In this document: positions 11,283 through 19,297 of the stretch, piece by piece
How positions within the stretch are numbered: position 1 is the stretch's first letter
Layout: each line of letters starts with the position of its first letter
NCBI GenBank assembly: GCA_944385995.1
Contig: CALWZL010000001.1
Location: 1 to 46,381, forward strand
DNA length: 46,381 bases
Reading direction: 5' to 3'
Origin: an uncultured Faecalibacterium sp.
GTDB taxonomy: Bacteria > Bacillota > Clostridia > Oscillospirales > Ruminococcaceae
Position numbers and translations under genes: made by a program
Notes under the pieces: generated by a model
Told to the model about the DNA's origin: nothing
The model's input: only the letters and a program-made list of their open reading frames with translations
Database searches by the model: none

Positions 11283-11363
11283 AGAGCTGTATCGCAAAAA
11301 GAAACGCAGGGGGAGCCGCCCATGGCGCACCCGCTGCGATGGGAATGGCTGGAGGAAACTACC

Positions 11364-12062
11364 ATGGCAAATGAAAAGATCCTCGTCGTGGACGACGACC
11401 AGAACATCTGCGAGCTGCTGCGGCTCTACCTGACCAAGGAAGGATTTCAGGTGACCCTCGCCTCAGACGGCGAGGATGCCCTGGAAAAATATGCCCAGAT
11501 CAAGCCGGACATGGTCTTGCTGGATGTCATGATGCCCCGGCTGGATGGCTGGGAGGTCTGCCGGCGGATTCGCAAGCAGGGCGACACCCCGGTGATTATG
11601 CTGACCGCCAAGGGAGAGACCTTCGACAAGGTTCTGGGCCTGGAGCTGGGCGCCGACGACTATATTGTCAAACCCTTTGACAGCAAAGAGGTGGTGGCCC
11701 GCATCAAGGCGGTGCTGCGGCGCTGTGCCGGCGGTGCTACGGCCGAAAAGCCCACCGAAGGGGTGGTGGAGTTTGACAACCTCCGCCTGGACATGAACAG
11801 CTACGAGCTGAAAGTCAAGGGAAAGGTGGTGGAGGCGCCCCCCAAAGAGTTGGAACTGCTCTACTGTCTGGCATCTCATCCCAACCGGGTTTACACCCGG
11901 GACCAGCTGTTGGATGAGGTGTGGGGCTTCGAGTATTACGGAGATTCCCGGACCATCGATGTCCACGTCAAGCGTCTGCGGGAAAAACTGGCCGGCGCTT
12001 CCGACAAATGGGAGCTCAAAACGGTCTGGGGCGTGGGCTATAAATTCGAGGTGCGTCAGTAA
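11364..12062 (+). CDS. OmpR-family response regulator
   Basis: A 232-residue transcriptional regulator. The receiver has the acidic pocket Asp10-Asp12, the phosphoacceptor Asp54 in VLLDVMMP, Thr81 and Lys103 in VKPFD. The C-terminal winged helix has the family segments PPKELELLYCLASHPNRV and SRTIDVHVKRLREKL. The ATG at 11364 follows TGGAGG and gives the canonical N-terminus; upstream in-frame starts would lie in the promoter region. The stop overlaps the kinase start by one base (TAATG), so the two are translationally coupled. The signal cannot be read from the sequence. Confidence 0.93.
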   Translation: MANEKILVVDDDQNICELLRLYLTKEGFQVTLASDGEDALEKYAQIKPDMVLLDVMMPRLDGWEVCRRIRKQGDTPVIMLTAKGETFDKVLGLELGADDYIVKPFDSKEVVARIKAVLRRCAGGATAEKPTEGVVEFDNLRLDMNSYELKVKGKVVEAPPKELELLYCLASHPNRVYTRDQLLDEVWGFEYYGDSRTIDVHVKRLREKLAGASDKWELKTVWGVGYKFEVRQ

Positions 12063-13558
12063 TGCGCAAAAGCATATCGGTGGCCTTCTTTTCGACGGTC
12101 GCCACCCTGATGATTTTGGGCGTCGCGGTGATGGGTCTGTCCCAGCTGGTTTTGTTCAGCCGGTACTTTGCCCGGGAGCGCTTTGATACCCTGGACGATG
12201 TGGGGGATTTGGCCGGCCGGACGGTGGGGTATTTCTGGGATGACCTGACCGAAAGCGAAAAGATGGATAGTGTCCTGGGCCAGGTGGACCTGATCGGCGA
12301 AAGCGCCAACGTCTATATCTTCTTCACCGACAACAGCGGCAAGGTGATTCTTGCTTCCAACAGCGACCACCTCATACAGGAAAAAATTCCCGCCGAGGTG
12401 CTGGACAAGGTGGCCGGCGCCGAGGATGGGGTATACCATGAGCTGGGCCGGATGAAGGAGTCCTTTGACGAAGAATTTTATGTCTCTGCCCGGCCGATTC
12501 TGCGGGATGACGCCGCGGCGGGCTATATCTTTGTATGCGCATCCGGGCAGATGCTGGACGATTTTGTGGGGCGGTTCGCCTCCAATTTCCTGTTGTCCGC
12601 CTGCCTGATGCTGATTTGTGCCAGCGTTTTGACCATGTTTTTGATGCGCAGCCTCACCGAACCCCTGCACCGGATCAGCGAGGCGGCCCAGAAATTCGGC
12701 GGCGGTGACTTTTCGGTCCGGGTGGAGGACGTGGAGGGGGACGGCGAAATTGCCGACCTGGCCCGCACCTTCAACACCATGGCCGCCAACTTGCAGCAGA
12801 TTGACTCCTCCCGGGGCCAGTTTATGGGCAATATTGCCCACGAACTCCGCACCCCCATGACCACCATCAAGGGCTTTATTGACGGCATCTTGGACGGGAC
12901 CATTCCGCCCGAGCTCCACAACCACTATTTGCAGCTGGTGTCCCAGGAGACCGGCCGTCTGGCCCGTCTGGTGCAGAATATGCTGGATTTGTCCAAACTG
13001 GAGTCGGGGGAATACCGGGTCAATGCCCGGATGTTCAACATCTGGGAGACCCTGACGGGGGTGGCCCTGTCGGCGGAACAGCGGATCAACGACGGCCAGA
13101 TTGACCTGGAAGGGCTGACCATGGATGAGCGGGTGCTGGTCTATGCCGACCCCGACCTGATTCATCAGGTGGTGTATAACCTGCTGGACAACGCCATCAA
13201 GTTCACGCCCCCGGGTGGAATCATCCGGTTTAACGTGGAAAAACTGGGCCCCGAGGCGGAAATTTCGGTCTGGAACAGCGGACAGGGCATTTCGGAAGAA
13301 GCGCTGCCCTTCGTCTTTGAACGATTCTATAAGGAGGACCAGTCCCGCGGACTCCATGCCCGGGGCGCCGGCCTGGGGCTGCATATCTGCAAGGTGCTGG
13401 TGAATTTGTCCGGCGGTCAGATTCGGGTGGAGAGCAAACAGGGGGAATGGTGCCGGTTTGTGTTCACCCTGCCGGTGGAGGTGCCGGGCCGCGGCGACCT
13501 GCTGAAATTGTCAGATGATACCACTGAAACCAGTTCCCGGGAAGCTCCGCAGGGGTGA
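12062..13558 (+). CDS. Membrane sensor histidine kinase
   Basis: A 498-residue kinase partnered with the upstream regulator. Transmembrane segments lie at about 8-32 and 174-196, with an extracellular sensor of about 140 residues between them. A HAMP linker (198-250) follows. The HisKA box with His260 in GNIAHELRTP comes next. The ATPase domain has an N-box (VVYNLLDNAIKFT) and G-boxes (GAGLGLHICK). The domain order resembles the PhoR/ResE/BaeS-type class. It is followed by a promoter for rpe and by no clear terminator. Confidence 0.93.
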   Translation: MRKSISVAFFSTVATLMILGVAVMGLSQLVLFSRYFARERFDTLDDVGDLAGRTVGYFWDDLTESEKMDSVLGQVDLIGESANVYIFFTDNSGKVILASNSDHLIQEKIPAEVLDKVAGAEDGVYHELGRMKESFDEEFYVSARPILRDDAAAGYIFVCASGQMLDDFVGRFASNFLLSACLMLICASVLTMFLMRSLTEPLHRISEAAQKFGGGDFSVRVEDVEGDGEIADLARTFNTMAANLQQIDSSRGQFMGNIAHELRTPMTTIKGFIDGILDGTIPPELHNHYLQLVSQETGRLARLVQNMLDLSKLESGEYRVNARMFNIWETLTGVALSAEQRINDGQIDLEGLTMDERVLVYADPDLIHQVVYNLLDNAIKFTPPGGIIRFNVEKLGPEAEISVWNSGQGISEEALPFVFERFYKEDQSRGLHARGAGLGLHICKVLVNLSGGQIRVESKQGEWCRFVFTLPVEVPGRGDLLKLSDDTTETSSREAPQG

Positions 13559-13622: not shown

Positions 13623-13699
13623 AAAATGTGAGCTGTGCCCCTGTGCAGCTCGAACGAAACGGAATAGAAAAAACTGATACAACGGAGAGTAAAGATACC

Positions 13700-14350
13700 A
13701 TGGCCATCATCAGTCCATCGATTTTATCTGCCGACTTCTGCCGTCTGGGGGACGAGTGCCGGATGGCGCTGGAAGCCGGAGCCGAAATGCTCCACTTTGA
13801 CGTAATGGACGGGCACTTTGTGCCCAACATCAGCTTTGGGGTGCCGGTGCTGGCCAGCCTGCACCGTGGGATTCCCAGCGCTTTTTTTGATGTGCACCTG
13901 ATGATTAGCCACCCGCTGTCCTATGTGGACGCCTTTGCCAGGGCGGGGGCCGGCCTCATCAACTTCCATCTGGAAGCGGAGGACGACCCGGCCGCGGTGC
14001 TGGCCGCCATCCGGGCGGCGGGCTGCAAGACGGGAATGACCATCAGCCCCAAAACCCCGGCCGAAAAGCTGTTCCCCTGGCTGGACCAGTTGGATCTGGT
14101 CCTGGTGATGGGGGTGGAGCCGGGCTTTGGCGGACAGAAGTTCATGCCGTCGGCCCTGGATAAGCTGTCTGCCCTCAGGGCGGAGCGCCAGAACCGGGGA
14201 TTGCAGTTCCTGCTGGAGGTGGACGGCGGCGTCAATGCCGAGACGGCTCCTCTGTGCACCCGGGCCGGCGCGGATGTGTTGGTGGCGGGCAGCGCTGTCT
14301 TTGCGGCGTCTGACCCGGCTGCTGTCATCCATGCTTTGGCGGCGGTATAA
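13700..14350 (+). CDS. rpe: Ribulose-phosphate 3-epimerase
   Basis: Interconverts ribulose 5-phosphate and xylulose 5-phosphate in the pentose phosphate pathway. The (beta/alpha)8 landmarks are present: ISPSILSADF at the start, HFDVMDGHFVPNISFG, VMGVEPGFGGQKF and LEVDGGVN. The length of 216 residues is normal when translation starts at the ATG at 13700, which follows CGGAGAG; the open frame extends upstream but into the promoter. The RnfD-like gene begins 22 bases downstream, so the two probably share a transcript, though no functional link is obvious. Confidence 0.95.
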   Translation: MAIISPSILSADFCRLGDECRMALEAGAEMLHFDVMDGHFVPNISFGVPVLASLHRGIPSAFFDVHLMISHPLSYVDAFARAGAGLINFHLEAEDDPAAVLAAIRAAGCKTGMTISPKTPAEKLFPWLDQLDLVLVMGVEPGFGGQKFMPSALDKLSALRAERQNRGLQFLLEVDGGVNAETAPLCTRAGADVLVAGSAVFAASDPAAVIHALAAV

Positions 14351-14372: not shown

Positions 14373-15392
14373 ATGGAAGAAACAACAAGAAAAGAACAGG
14401 AGACGGAGCTGGCCCGGACGGGCCGGTATTATAAGCATATCTGCTGGATGGCCCTGCCCCTTGTCTGTATGTCGGCCTATCTGTACGGGCCGCGGCCGAT
14501 CCTGCTCTGCCTGGTGGCTCTGCTGACCGGCAACCTCTGCGACCGCCTGGTGGCGGTTCTGCGGCGGCGGGTTTACCGCGCGGCCGACTGGTCCAACGAG
14601 AGCTTTGCCCTTGTCATCGCCCTGCTGATGCCGGCCACGGTCAGCTGGTATGTGCTGGTGGTGGCAGTGATGGCCGGCGTTCTGCTGGGCAAAGAGGCCT
14701 TCGGCGGGTACGGGAGTTATCCCTTCCACCCGGCCGCCGTGGGCTATGTGGTGGTGGCGGTGTCCTGGCCCGAGCAGGTCTTTCTGTATCCCCAGCCCTA
14801 CGCCGACATTCCCCTGTGGAATACCGAGGGGGTCAGCCTGGTCAGCGGGATGAGCAGTACCCTCCGCAACGGCGGATTGCCCACCGTCAGCTCCTGGTCT
14901 TTGATCCTGGGCGAATTTGCCGCCCCGCTGGGAACCGGCGCCGTCCTGATTCTGCTGGCCTGCGCCCTCTTTCTCTGCACCCAAAAAGACATTCAGCTGC
15001 CGGCAGCCCTCAGCTTTTTGGTGGCCTGCGGGCTGATTGTGTTCTTTTTCCCGCGGCAGGCCGATCTGGTTCAGACTGCTTTCTGGGAGAGCGCCCTCCA
15101 GCGCCTCAACCTGGTGCGGTATGAACTGGTCAGCGGCGCAACCCTCTACAGCGCGATTTTCCTGGTCAGCGAGCCCTATACCTGTCCCCGCCGCAAACTG
15201 GGCCAGGTGCTGTATGGGGCTTTGCTGGGCTGCCTGAGCATGGTGTTCCGGTATATCGGCGTCTACGAAACCGCCGTCTGCTTTGCGATTCTGATGATGA
15301 ACGGCCTGTCGGGCTGGCTGGATCGGGTGGTGGACCGGCTGTACAGCCTGCCTGAGACCCGGCGCGCCGGCGGGAAGGAGGCTGCCTTATGA
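14373..15392 (+). CDS. RnfD/NqrB-like membrane protein with altered flavin site
   Basis: A 339-residue multi-pass membrane protein homologous to RnfD of the Rnf complex. Matching segments include KEAFGGYGSYPFHPAAVGYVVV (about 107-128) and LVSGATLYSAIFLVSEPYT near residue 255. Rnf subunit D normally carries FMN on a Thr within a D-G-x-S-x-A-T-type motif. Here the aligned residues 152-158 read EGVSLVS, so Thr is replaced by Ser and Asp by Glu. A Ser-linked flavin cannot be excluded. It opens a three-gene block whose junctions overlap (E-like start at 15389). RnfB, C and G are absent from the neighbourhood. Confidence 0.85.
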   Translation: MEETTRKEQETELARTGRYYKHICWMALPLVCMSAYLYGPRPILLCLVALLTGNLCDRLVAVLRRRVYRAADWSNESFALVIALLMPATVSWYVLVVAVMAGVLLGKEAFGGYGSYPFHPAAVGYVVVAVSWPEQVFLYPQPYADIPLWNTEGVSLVSGMSSTLRNGGLPTVSSWSLILGEFAAPLGTGAVLILLACALFLCTQKDIQLPAALSFLVACGLIVFFFPRQADLVQTAFWESALQRLNLVRYELVSGATLYSAIFLVSEPYTCPRRKLGQVLYGALLGCLSMVFRYIGVYETAVCFAILMMNGLSGWLDRVVDRLYSLPETRRAGGKEAAL

Positions 15393-16114
15393 AACAGAGC
15401 AAAGCGGAAGTCATTCTGCGGGACCCGGGCAAATATGCCCATCACGACCGGATTTTCCTGAATAACCCGGTCATCATGCAGGGCATGGGCCTGGCGCCGG
15501 TGGTGGTGCTGGCCACCAGCGGCCGGAATGCCCTGATGCTGGCGGCGGCGGTGGCCCTGCTGCTGACCCCGTCCCGGGTGCTGAGCTACCTGCTGAGCAA
15601 GCTGGTGCCCCTGGAGGAGCATGCCAGCGAAGAAGAACTGCGCGCCAAACTGCTGCCCCGGGGCCTGATTTATTCCGGTACGGCGGCGGTGGTGTATTTC
15701 CTGGTCTATCCGCTGCTGCGGAATCTGTTCGGAACGGAACTGCTGACCCTGGGCATCTATCTGCCCATGCTGGTGCTGGAACCCCTCATCATCTACCGCT
15801 ATGGACGGGTCCAGGAGACCCTCCCCAAGGCCATCTCCAAGGGCCTGCGGGTGACGGTGGGCTATGTGGTGGTTTTGCTGGTGGTGGGCTGCATCCGGGA
15901 ATGGCTGGCCACCGGCACCGTCTTTGGCTTTGCGGTGACAGCCAATACCGCCCTGCTGCCCCTGGCTTCGATGCCGGCGGGAGGGTTTATCCTGCTGGGG
16001 GTGGTGAGCGCCGTATGGCGTGCCCTGGCCGCCTGGTACAGGACATTCCTGGCCACGGAGGCCCGCAATCAGGTCATTGTCAACCATCAGAAGGAGGCGA
16101 GGGGCAAACTGTGA
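15389..16114 (+). CDS. RnfE/NqrD-like membrane protein lacking the Fe-S cysteines
   Basis: A 241-residue membrane protein aligning with RnfE along its length: NNPVIMQGMGLAP matches NN..LVQ.LGLCP, LGIYLPMLV matches GIFIPLIV, GCIREWLATGTVFG matches G.LREI.G.GTLFG, and MPAGGFILLG matches PPGAFIGLG. The two Cys that help ligate the intramembrane [2Fe-2S] cluster are replaced by Ala36 and Pro132. An insert of charged residues lies around 75-90. Its ATG overlaps the RnfD-like stop by 4 bases and its stop overlaps the next start, so the trio is tightly coupled. Confidence 0.85.
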   Translation: MKQSKAEVILRDPGKYAHHDRIFLNNPVIMQGMGLAPVVVLATSGRNALMLAAAVALLLTPSRVLSYLLSKLVPLEEHASEEELRAKLLPRGLIYSGTAAVVYFLVYPLLRNLFGTELLTLGIYLPMLVLEPLIIYRYGRVQETLPKAISKGLRVTVGYVVVLLVVGCIREWLATGTVFGFAVTANTALLPLASMPAGGFILLGVVSAVWRALAAWYRTFLATEARNQVIVNHQKEARGKL

Positions 16115-16743
16115 ATACTGCGATTTATACCCAGGCCGGCTCCCTGTCTGAGGCATTGACCATCTTTTTCGGCTATGCAGTGATGGCCGTCCTGGCCCAG
16201 AATGCGGTCTTTACCCGGGCCTTGGGCGTCTCCCGGCTGGTCCAGCTGGTGGGCGACGAGCGGACCAACAGCCTGTTGTTCGGGGTGCTGCAGTGCATTA
16301 CCCAGTTCCTGCTGGCCCCGGTGGCCTGGTATGTGGGCGGTGCTGCCGCTGCCCTGGGATTGGGAGCCCGCTCCCGGCCTCTGGTCTATCTGGCCTGCAT
16401 TGCGGTGGTCAGCGTGGCCGAAATGGCGTTTCTGTACTTTGTCAAACTGCCCTGGCAGCGGCAGCTGCTGCGGATTTTGCCGCTGGCCTGTTTGAATACC
16501 TGTGTGCTGGGCACCCTGCTGCTGGGCCGGACCCAGAGTTTCAGCCTGCTCCAGTCCATGGGCTTTGGCCTGGGCAGCGGCGTGGGCTATCTGCTGGCGG
16601 TCCTTCTGGTGATCGAGGCCCAAAACCGGCTGCGCAGCCAGTCGATTCCGTCGGCATTCCGCGGGATGCCCATTACCTTGATTTACATCGGCGTGCTGGC
16701 CCTGGCCATCTACGGCCTGACGGGACACACGGTGATCCTGTGA
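16111..16743 (+). CDS. RnfA/NqrE-like membrane protein with displaced cluster cysteines
   Basis: A 210-residue membrane protein aligning with RnfA: QNAVFTRALGVS corresponds to NNFVL.KFLGLC, LPLACLNTCVLG to LPLITTNCAVLG, and IPSAFRGMPITLIYIGVLALAIYGLTG to the RnfA C-terminus. The first cluster Cys is Ser41; at the second position there is Thr130, with a Cys one residue later. The start is a GTG at 16111 that overlaps the preceding stop as GTGA; GAGGGG precedes it. About six membrane helices are predicted. With RnfD- and RnfE-like partners it probably forms a membrane core without the usual redox carriers. Confidence 0.83.
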   Translation: MNTAIYTQAGSLSEALTIFFGYAVMAVLAQNAVFTRALGVSRLVQLVGDERTNSLLFGVLQCITQFLLAPVAWYVGGAAAALGLGARSRPLVYLACIAVVSVAEMAFLYFVKLPWQRQLLRILPLACLNTCVLGTLLLGRTQSFSLLQSMGFGLGSGVGYLLAVLLVIEAQNRLRSQSIPSAFRGMPITLIYIGVLALAIYGLTGHTVIL

Positions 16744-16828: not shown

Positions 16829-17956
16829 ATGCCGAAAAGAAAGAAAGTCAAGCGGTATCACCGCAGCTTTTACAGCCGGGGAATGAAGGTCAAGAAAGCC
16901 CTGGGCATTGTACTGCTGGCGGTGGTGGTGTTGGGGGCGGCCTGGCTGGCCGCGCCCTATGTGCTGGACTGGGCCACCCATACCTGGTACACGGTGGTGC
17001 GGGACCGGGATCTGCCCGATTCCTCCGAAGCGGGTTCGTCGGAGGCGTCCTCTGCGGCCTCTTCGGAAGCGGCGTCCTCGTCCTCCCGGCCGGCCTCCTC
17101 GGCGGCTTCGTCGGAGGCTGCCTCCTCCCGGCCGGCGCCGGTGGCTGGCACCGTGATTCGGGAGGGCAGCTGGTCCAGCGTCAGCCTGTCGGCGCTGGGC
17201 GATGAGGTGGCCATCCGGGCCACCGCCCAGAACCTGGCGCAGCAGGGGGTGACCTATGCCATGATTCCCCTGAAGGACACCAGCGGCTATATCTATTACG
17301 CCTCGGCGGTGCCGGCGGCCTCGGACAGCGTGGCGGCCAGCGTGGTGGACCCGGCCCTCATCGCCTCGATTTTCAAGGAAGAAGGCCTGGTGCCGGTGGC
17401 AGAAGTGGCTGCTTTCCAGGACCCGGTGGCCTGCTATGCCGACCGCAGCATGGCGATTCAGTATGCGGGCGGCAATGGCTATCTGTGGCTGGATGCCGCC
17501 AATGCGGCGGCCGGCGGAAAAGCCTGGCTCAATCCCTACGCCTCGTCGGCCGTCCAGTTTGTGGGGGACCTGGTGGAAGAACTGTATAACTGCGGCTTTG
17601 AACAGGTCTGCCTGTCGGCGGTACAGTTCCCCCACTCCACCTCCTCCAACCAGAATTTCGGCGAGACGGGCGGCGTCGGCCGGGATGGTCAGCTTGCGGC
17701 TGACATCGCCGCGTGGGATGCCCGGTTTGCGGGGCGGGTGACGCTCTGGTATGAGTACCCCCTGTCCAGCTGTACCAGCGTCAGCACCACTTTGGGGGCT
17801 CTGCCGGCCCAACTGGGCGTCAAGAACCTGGTGGTGAGCCTGCCGGCCGGGGAGACCCGGGATGAGGCGCAGCTGACCCAGACAGCCGCCCAGATGAAAG
17901 AGATGGGCGCCGCCTACGTTGTCGTGCGGGACAGCGAAGCCGGAAACTTTTATTGA
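16829..17956 (+). CDS. Membrane-anchored DUF4015-like TIM-barrel protein, active site altered
   Basis: A 375-residue protein: basic N-terminus, one membrane segment (about 24-44), a Ser/Ala/Pro low-complexity linker (about 65-105), then an extracellular domain of about 270 residues. The domain resembles the putative glycoside hydrolase family DUF4015: WLNPYASSAVQFVGDLVEELYNCGFEQV is followed by SAVQFP where the family has a DYIRFP-like motif. The missing Asp suggests loss of hydrolase activity, perhaps leaving a wall-binding role. GTGAAGGAACC precedes the ATG. It lies 85 bases after the RnfA-like gene and just before the DUF1015 gene, in the same direction. Confidence 0.7.
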   Translation: MPKRKKVKRYHRSFYSRGMKVKKALGIVLLAVVVLGAAWLAAPYVLDWATHTWYTVVRDRDLPDSSEAGSSEASSAASSEAASSSSRPASSAASSEAASSRPAPVAGTVIREGSWSSVSLSALGDEVAIRATAQNLAQQGVTYAMIPLKDTSGYIYYASAVPAASDSVAASVVDPALIASIFKEEGLVPVAEVAAFQDPVACYADRSMAIQYAGGNGYLWLDAANAAAGGKAWLNPYASSAVQFVGDLVEELYNCGFEQVCLSAVQFPHSTSSNQNFGETGGVGRDGQLAADIAAWDARFAGRVTLWYEYPLSSCTSVSTTLGALPAQLGVKNLVVSLPAGETRDEAQLTQTAAQMKEMGAAYVVVRDSEAGNFY

Positions 17957-18001
17957 TGGGACCTGCCGCAAGGGTCTTTTGTGAGAGTGAGGAACCGAAC
18001 G

Positions 18002-19297
18002 ATGGAAAAAACGTCCTGCTTTATGCCGGCCCATATCCTCTTGCCCGACGCATCCGTTCCGCTGGGGCAATGGGGCTGCATTGCCTGCGATCAGTTCACC
18101 AGTGACCGGGATTACTGGGCCCAAGCCGAGGCGGCGGCCGCCGGCGGTCCCAGCACCCTCCGGCTGATTCTGCCGGAAGTCTATCTGGGGGACAACGACC
18201 AGCAGGCCCGCGTGGATCAAATCCACCAGACCATGGAATCCTACGACCGGGAAGTTCTGACCCGGGCAGTGGACGGCTTTGTCTATGTGGAGCGCACCCT
18301 CCAGAGCGGCCGGGTCCGTCAGGGCCTGGTGGGCCGGGTGGACCTGGAGGCCTACAACTATCACCGGGGCAGCCTGTCCCTGGTGCGGCCCAGCGAAAAC
18401 ACGGTGGAGGAGCGGATTCCGCCCCGGATGGCGGTCCGCCGCGGGGCCCGTCTGGAGACGCCCCATGTGATGATGCTGGCCGACGACCCGGACCGGATTC
18501 TGATCGAGCCGGTGGGCCGGCAGAAAGAGAAGCTGCGGCCCCTGTATGACGGGGAATTGATGCTGGGCGGCGGCCATGTGGCCGGCTGGGCGGTGGAAGA
18601 CCCCGCCATGATCGCCCGGATTGAGGAAGCCATGCGGACGCTGGGCAGCCAGGAGACCTTCCTGGCCAAGTATCCCGGCGCCCCCAATACCCGGCCTCTG
18701 GCGCTGGCGGTGGGCGACGGCAACCACTCCCTGGCCACTGCCAAGGCCTATTGGGAGGAGATCAAAAAGACCCTGACGCCGGAACAGCAGAAAGATCATC
18801 CCGCCCGGTGGTGCCTGGCGGAGGTCTGCAACGTCCGGTCGGATGCGGTGGAGATCGAGCCGATTCACCGGGTCCTCTTCAACACCAGCTATGAGACGGT
18901 GCTGTTGAATCTGGTTACATGGAGCGATGAAAATATGGTGGGGGTGCGCTTCGGCGACACCTTCGACCAGAAGCTCCGTTTGGTGGGCCCGCAGGACGCC
19001 TGCGACCTCAGCTTTGAGGCGCCCACGGCCCCCCTGGGGGTAGGTACGGTGGATGAGTTCGTGGAGTACTTCCTCGAAAATCATCCCGAGGCCCGGGTGG
19101 ACTATGTCCACGACGAGGGGGCCGTCCGCTCCTTCTGCACCAAGGAAGGGGCAGTAGGCCTGCTGCTGCCCGCCATGCGGAAGGGCGATCTCTTCCGCGG
19201 CGTGGTGCTGGGGGGCGTGCTGCCCCGCAAGACCTTCAGCCTGGGCCACGCCGAAGAAAAGCGGTACTACATCGAGTGCCGCCGCATTGCAGAATAA
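18002..19297 (+). CDS. DUF1015 family protein
   Basis: A 431-residue cytoplasmic protein of the DUF1015 family, whose biochemical function is unknown to me. Family-like landmarks are FMPAHILLPD and ACDQFTSDRDYW near the N-terminus and VGDGNHSLATAK (about 231-242) in the place of the usual DGHHR motif. I chose the ATG at 18002 because GTGAGGAA lies upstream; an in-frame GTG at 17981 has no comparable site. It is 45 bases downstream of the TIM-barrel gene. An inverted repeat follows before the helicase gene. Confidence 0.85.
   Translation: MEKTSCFMPAHILLPDASVPLGQWGCIACDQFTSDRDYWAQAEAAAAGGPSTLRLILPEVYLGDNDQQARVDQIHQTMESYDREVLTRAVDGFVYVERTLQSGRVRQGLVGRVDLEAYNYHRGSLSLVRPSENTVEERIPPRMAVRRGARLETPHVMMLADDPDRILIEPVGRQKEKLRPLYDGELMLGGGHVAGWAVEDPAMIARIEEAMRTLGSQETFLAKYPGAPNTRPLALAVGDGNHSLATAKAYWEEIKKTLTPEQQKDHPARWCLAEVCNVRSDAVEIEPIHRVLFNTSYETVLLNLVTWSDENMVGVRFGDTFDQKLRLVGPQDACDLSFEAPTAPLGVGTVDEFVEYFLENHPEARVDYVHDEGAVRSFCTKEGAVGLLLPAMRKGDLFRGVVLGGVLPRKTFSLGHAEEKRYYIECRRIAE

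Follow-up and report, generated by a model that had tools for sequence, protein, structure and literature searches.

An RnfD-E-A-like membrane trio in Faecalibacterium that lacks the cluster and covalent-flavin ligands of Rnf: a candidate transporter

Three overlapping Rnf-like genes

We analysed a 46,381-nucleotide stretch of DNA from an uncultured Faecalibacterium sp. (assembly GCA_944385995.1, contig CALWZL010000001.1, positions 1 to 46,381), hereafter the window. It carries three overlapping membrane protein genes, D, E and A, related to rnfD, rnfE and rnfA of the Rnf complex and here called the trio. The genes, with protein lengths in amino acids (aa), are as follows.

14373..15392, + strand: D-like homolog of RnfD/NqrB, 339 aa (PF03116, 187 bits, 6e-55; 8ahx_D 4e-14, 7zc6_D 5e-11)
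15389..16114, + strand: E-like homolog of RnfE, 241 aa, 4-bp overlap with D (PF02508, 87 bits, 2.5e-24; 7zc6_E 8e-12)
16111..16743, + strand: A-like homolog of RnfA, 210 aa, GTG start over the E stop (PF02508, 70 bits, 3.9e-19; 9eri_A 1.7e-11)

A sequence-only reading of the window had described three intact, tightly coupled frames, and this is what we find: the D/E and E/A overlaps are 4 bp each, the GTG start of A at 16111 lies within the stop codon of E (GTGA), and a GGAGG motif ends 13 bp upstream of A. The likeness to RnfD, RnfE and RnfA that it had recognised along the proteins also holds, since all three score above the curated Pfam cut-off (PF03116, PF02508 and PF02508, respectively) and are aligned by HMMER with solved Rnf chains over nearly their whole length. 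None of them comes near the corresponding NCBIfam cut-off (133 vs 207 bits for D against rnfD, 52 vs 213 for E against rnfE and 57 vs 229 for A against rnfA).

Cofactor sites of the trio

Residues were counted in 85 trio D, 85 trio E and 90 trio A proteins and compared with 15 complete Rnf systems of the same order. We manually reassigned one locus (L146), first grouped with Rnf, to the trio, because its sole RnfB match scores 21 bits and lies on its RnfC-like gene. Sites were placed by HMMER alignment to solved chains and by family MAFFT alignments, and both methods agree. Residue roles were taken from PMC9588780, PMC10643135 and PMC12174285 and transferred through alignments of D to the solved chains. 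The codons at the cluster and flavin mononucleotide (FMN) positions are listed below.

15494..15496, + strand: E Ala36, at the first cluster Cys of RnfE (Cys in 0/85 trio E, 15/15 Rnf)
15782..15784, + strand: E Pro132, at the second cluster Cys of RnfE (Cys in 0/85 trio E, 15/15 Rnf)
16231..16233, + strand: A Ser41, at the first cluster Cys of RnfA (Cys in 0/90 trio A, 15/15 Rnf)
16498..16503, + strand: A Thr130-Cys131, with Thr130 at the second cluster Cys of RnfA (Cys in 33/90 trio A, 15/15 Rnf)
14844..14849, + strand: D Ser158-Gly159, at the covalent-FMN Thr of RnfD (Thr in 3/85 trio D, 15/15 Rnf)

None of the four cysteines of the [2Fe-2S] cluster is present in the window trio. The replacements proposed from the sequence alone (Ala36 and Pro132 in E, Ser41 and Thr130 in A, with one Cys shifted by a residue) are confirmed by the alignment to solved chains, and the family alignments give the same positions. 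The shifted residue, Cys131 of A, is invariant in the 11 Faecalibacterium. Column conservation reveals no replacement set of cysteines for the cluster: in the E-like family every Cys column stays below 30%, and in the A-like family only columns 96 (51%) and 130 (43%) exceed that level. In D, the position of the covalent-FMN Thr falls on Ser158 in the pairwise alignment with 7zc6_D or on Gly159 in the family alignment, so the flavin region indeed lacks the Thr, as had been noticed. The Ala preceding this column is not conserved in trio D. In addition, Arg130 of RnfD, which is described as an FMN contact (PMC9588780), is found in 0/85 trio D and in 15/15 Rnf.

A retained ion path in subunit D

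One segment of D covers the aromatic gate and the channel acid.

15147..15173, + strand: D Tyr259 to Glu267, gate (259, 263) and channel acid (267), by alignment

Positions 259 and 263 align with F338 and F342 of NqrB, and position 267 with D248 of Clostridium tetanomorphum RnfD; the gate roles of these residues are described in PMC10643135 and PMC12174285. With nine near-identical rows omitted, the gate positions are Phe or Tyr in 73/76 and 74/76 trio D (82 and 82 of 85 in all rows). The channel acid is Asp or Glu in 70/76 (79/85), and the position of Lys107 is Lys or Arg in 72/76 (81/85).

Distribution and maintenance

The host belongs to Faecalibacterium. A search with D found ten Faecalibacterium loci with D proteins 62-90% identical, and in all ten, relatives of E, A and the neighbouring rpe, DUF4015 and DUF1015 genes (described below) lie beside D. 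The sequence-only reading had asked whether a complete Rnf occurs in the same genome. It does: rnfC-D-G-E-A-B lies about 100 kb away on the contig of the window (C1), and the four cluster cysteines are all present in its A and E. The four PF02508 matches on this contig are two strong ones at 119.9-121.1 kb, belonging to the complete Rnf, and the two in the trio; each of the five sampled genomes of the host's genus likewise holds four.

Across the host's family, PF02508 was found in 272 of 297 sampled genomes. A hand count gives at least three matches in 192, two strong matches only in 52, weak matches only in 28 and none in 25. We read at least three matches as canonical plus trio type, two strong ones as canonical and weak ones only as trio type. 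The trio would accordingly be present in roughly 200, at most 220, of the 297 genomes by this hand count, a range set because there may be additional canonical copies among the 192, and because the 28 include five small genomes (0.7-0.9 Mb) that have a single match each, with only a lone A-like gene recognised in the four inspected. Four loci in reduced genomes of this size (L137 in G087, L138 in G068, L139 in G174 and L140 in G160) carry a lone A-like gene with hidden Markov model scores of 63-92 bits. Neither D nor E was recognised in the fetched stretches of these four, and three of the A-like genes were scanned and gave no Pfam match. In L137, L138 and L140 the lone A is followed by a lipoprotein-like gene of 478-487 aa, of which the L137 copy has no Pfam match.

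At 1e-5, a Faecalibacterium-derived model of A finds matches in 266 of the 297 family genomes, canonical RnfA included. Of 59 family loci fetched, 56 show the D-E-A order, two are cut by contig ends (L075, L108) and one is split (L092). Six further trio loci lie in three other families of the order (f5, f23 and f24). Canonical RnfA, too, reaches 120-143 bits with the order-wide model A4, which therefore cannot count trios by itself. Among 157 genomes of the class outside the order (E <= 1e-38), 11 matches besides the window score 135-148 bits, which is the range of canonical RnfA, and only the window's own match departs from that range; the best two (L190 and L191, the only ones checked) carry canonical Cys motifs, and so strict a threshold would miss diverged trios. 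The D-E-A order without B and G is thus widespread in the family and reaches three more families of the order, and the trio is not debris of a single strain.

The trio is maintained, as the sequence-only reading had supposed. The median ratio of nonsynonymous to synonymous substitution rates (dN/dS) over 45 pairs within Faecalibacterium (the window and L005-L013) is 0.20 for D, 0.20 for E and 0.21 for A. Judged from these codon comparisons, it is under purifying selection. A decaying pseudo-operon would agree with the ligand loss and with the clean absence of the trio from some genomes, but it is hardly credible with intact overlapping frames, a dN/dS of about 0.2 and conservation over a family and other families of the order. 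Very probably, then, the trio is a maintained set of proteins without the [2Fe-2S] cluster and covalent FMN, as far as sequence can tell.

Such an operon is already in print. For F. duncaniae A2-165, PMC10781979 (2024) presents rnfDEA (CG447_09840-830) beside rnfCDGEAB (CG447_10905-930), both as NADH:ferredoxin oxidoreductase. That this rnfDEA is of the trio type is putative and rests on gene order and genus. The section of that paper on these operons does not mention ligand loss. A literature search, which covered few subscription journals and is therefore no proof of absence, found no report of a ligand-less trio. Hence the earlier impression that no such system has been described stands for the ligand loss, and it does not stand for the operon, which PMC10781979 names as a second putative rnf operon. 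This published reading can be extended to a working second Rnf that uses B, C and G of the canonical operon. We consider it very improbable, since every member examined lacks three of the four cluster ligands and nearly every one lacks the FMN anchor, and since the trio occurs where canonical RnfC, A and E were not found. In particular, genomes of genera g90 (G177 and G237; 97 and 99% complete) and g77 (G076 and G166; 83-84%), two of three sampled genomes in each genus, have weak trio-type PF02508 matches only and no RnfC match over the cut-off, so there the trio would not have to rely on subunits of a canonical Rnf. Our sequence comparisons argue against counting rnfDEA as a second NADH:ferredoxin oxidoreductase. 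The energy scheme of F. duncaniae, in which rnfDEA is counted within the energy-conserving Rnf, is thereby put in question, and counting PF02508 and PF03116 matches overestimates the Rnf copies in gut genomes.

Gene neighbourhood

The genes around the trio in the window are listed below.

12062..13558, + strand: HAMP histidine kinase (clusters c2/c3, upstream of rpe in 22 and 20 of 70 loci)
13628..14350, + strand: rpe, ribulose-phosphate 3-epimerase, start uncertain (PF00834, 1e-68; upstream on the same strand in 75/91 trio loci)
16829..17956, + strand: DUF4015 protein, 375 aa, possible partner (PF13200, 1e-12; after A on the same strand in 66/91 trio loci)
17981..19297, + strand: DUF1015 protein, next downstream in Faecalibacterium (in all ten Faecalibacterium loci; candidate link to the trio)

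The gene for the response regulator that belongs to the HAMP kinase lies just upstream of it, at about 11352-12062. The DUF4015 gene follows A at a median gap of 33 bp (longest frame). Its product has one N-terminal transmembrane (TM) segment by hydropathy and a presumed extracytoplasmic domain. It is found in 22 of 25 genomes counted as trio-bearing and 11 of 36 others (odds ratio 17, p = 8e-6, kinship uncorrected). In five loci without the trio (L183, L185, L186, L187 and L188), the gap between rpe and the DUF4015 gene is 15-71 bp, or the two share 4 bp; this junction marks the site that the trio occupies elsewhere. The trio can therefore be cleanly absent, and DUF4015 can exist without it. 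The 612-797 bp gaps between rpe and DUF4015 in four of the nine trio-less DUF4015 loci were considered as the place of a diverged trio gene; only mecA, on the opposite strand, was recognised in them. In two other families of the order (L173 in G372, L180 in G298), a DUF4015 gene directly follows rnfB on the same strand in a complete or near-complete Rnf; from these two loci, DUF4015 may be a wider Rnf partner.

The recurrent gene order and the TM-anchored partner would also suit a scaffold or regulator without transport, for example one that anchors the DUF4015 protein in the envelope or modulates the canonical Rnf, and a canonical Rnf does stand alongside in most trio genomes (192 with at least three PF02508 matches vs 28 with weak ones only, by hand count). 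Such a role seems improbable, because a scaffold has no need of the conserved pore gate and acid, and because some genomes have the trio without canonical Rnf matches.

The sequence-only reading had found no RnfB, RnfC or RnfG beside the trio, and this holds widely. In the 91 fetched trio loci no RnfG was recognised, and no RnfB except the match of L146 mentioned above. RnfC is reduced or unrecognised: an RnfC-like gene, C', accompanies the trio in 24 loci and precedes D in those viewed. By pattern, two Fe-S motifs are present in 18 of the 24 C' proteins. The Gly-rich FMN/NAD loop is present in 0/24 C' and in 16/16 RnfC (14 by pattern, 2 by eye). In the two C' scanned there is no RnfC_N match, and the 51K domain (both) and SLBB (one) fall below the Pfam cut-off. 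C' was not recognised in the 11 Faecalibacterium.

Relation to complete Rnf

In a tree of concatenated D, E and A with 53 rows, one branch with 100/100 support splits 38 trio rows from 15 Rnf rows; a number of the deep branches have support under 95, and three of the trio rows are long. Within the trio, L161, L167, L170, L177 and L088, all with C', come closest to the Rnf side, and L168, placed among them, lacks C'. The presence of C' in the rows closest to Rnf fits a stepwise loss. Descent of the trio from a DUF4015-bearing complete Rnf such as L173 or L180 is not supported, as both fall inside the Rnf group and the trio sits outside on a long branch.

A transporter built on the Rnf core

Since the redox-chain ligands have been lost and selection has preserved the ion path of D, we favour a cofactor-free transporter. 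In full, and with a probability of about 55%, the trio would be a membrane complex that arose from a duplicated Rnf, lost the redox chain and serves as a transporter of ions or of solutes coupled to ions, with the DUF4015 protein as its outside partner where encoded. Taken by itself, transport by the trio has about an even chance on sequence grounds. Here E and A would form a pseudo-symmetric half-helix dimer without metal, and D a channel like those of the ammonium transporter (Amt) and urea transporter families, with aromatic gate and channel acid. The TM-anchored DUF4015 protein would have the topology of RnfG and act outside. An ion gradient or substrate binding would drive the conformational changes in place of the electron hops of Rnf, so that transport by the complex would be downhill or by symport, without pumping. 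RnfD/NqrB is described as related to the ammonium/urea transporter fold (PMC12174285), and by analogy this kinship would make a redox-free D a plausible transporter. The sequence-only reading had suggested, among other things, that the Rnf core might serve to transport ions or small molecules; the retained gate and channel acid fit this, and transport itself is a prediction. We infer the assembly of the complex, the absence of cofactors from the protein, transport and the role of DUF4015 alike.

Several observations weigh against this transporter. The DUF4015 gene is absent from 25 of the 91 trio loci (some are contig-end cuts or lone A genes) and, being present in 11 of 36 other genomes too, is not strictly tied to the trio. 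Nor is the operon always whole, since in G102 (1.0 Mb) A follows rpe (L092) and C'-D-E lie on another contig (L149). An AlphaFold model of D from 11 alignment rows is unusable (mean predicted local distance difference test score, pLDDT, 43.6). D-like proteins have six Cys columns at or above 30%, the highest being 197 (75%) and 303 (58%). One Faecalibacterium locus (L014) has Thr at the FMN column and is one of the three in 85; this Thr stands outside an S/T-G-A-T context, which we take to be the flavin-site motif. Furthermore, in the loci with C' the riboflavin-contact Asn (119) is kept in 23/24 and the acid in 24/24, so a non-covalent flavin may be bound despite the missing Thr. Of all 85 trio D, 46 have Asn and 32 have His at position 119 (raw counts, kinship uncontrolled). 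A His/Glu pair that would substitute for the riboflavin-contact Asn/Asp was rejected, because no covariation links position 119 to position 267 (rank 2877 of 3828).

The main rival, followed by the scaffold, takes up these flavin residues. It proposes a reduced redox complex in which D holds non-covalent riboflavin and is fed, where present, by the RnfC-like protein with two [4Fe-4S] clusters, and electrons pass part-way across the membrane, Faecalibacterium being further reduced. The paired Fe-S motifs of most C' and the Asn119 of their D partners speak for it. We hold it to be unlikely, because C' lacks the FMN/NAD loop and there is no RnfG, FMN anchor or cluster for onward electron passage, and because all 11 Faecalibacterium have His at 119 and no recognised C'. 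Regarding the earlier suggestion of a complex with new cofactors, members that keep the RnfC-like subunit may hold riboflavin.

Returning to the transporter, we propose tentatively that a redox pump was turned by stepwise loss (of the cluster, the FMNs, B and G, and then RnfC) into a cofactor-free, gradient-driven transporter kept across a major gut family, with DUF4015 in the place of RnfG and possibly a flavin or another former cofactor as cargo. The trio would be a natural separation of the Rnf/NQR transport core from its redox chain. A 2025 review (PMC12174285) describes the ion route in Rnf, through D or the A-E dimer, as under debate, and a homolog without redox ligands but with the D gate makes this question testable.

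Other Rnf-related loci

In Candidatus Avimonas narfia (L015, 2-8 kb), a 339-aa membrane protein is encoded after an ApbE-like gene (by eye), RnfC, RnfD and an FMN_bind protein. It has no Pfam match and weak E-like similarity (17 bits), and the locus is possibly another Rnf with a changed A/E part. Three genomes of genus g81 (G080, G170 and G235) have strong RnfC matches in open frames of 668-714 aa and no strong RnfA/E matches, which may be a fusion or another complex. In the host genome (G000), FMN_bind was matched twelve times, and six of these matches lie in open frames of 673-712 aa; this suggests several extracytosolic flavoproteins.

Comparison with known systems

The NQR/RNF-like flavinylated clusters described in PMC8238504 share with the trio an NqrB/RnfD-type membrane domain outside a full complex. 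They differ in carrying FMN-binding partners and a NAD domain of the NqrF type; no such partner or domain was seen beside the trio.

A comparison with the Rnf complex (RnfABCDGE; 7zc6, 8ahx and 9eri) shows near-full-length alignment of D, E and A, the same gene order of D before E-A, and the gate and acid of D in common. The trio differs from it by the absence of the [2Fe-2S] ligand set, of the covalent-FMN Thr and of a recognised B or G, by an RnfC that is absent or reduced, and by the DUF4015 gene that is often attached.

With the NqrBDE core of the Na+-translocating NADH:quinone oxidoreductase (Na+-NQR) the trio shares the aromatic residue at D 259, like F338 of NqrB, where most Rnf of the order have Leu or Ile. 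The core cofactors persist in NQR, which additionally acquires NqrF, while the trio loses them and has no recognised reductase beside it; NqrF, NqrC or NqrA-like partners are not among the recurrent trio neighbour clusters, and no search was aimed at them. The origin proposed for NQR is duplication of an rnf operon with loss of rnfB (PMC4014512), and such duplication with gene loss is a precedent for the trio.

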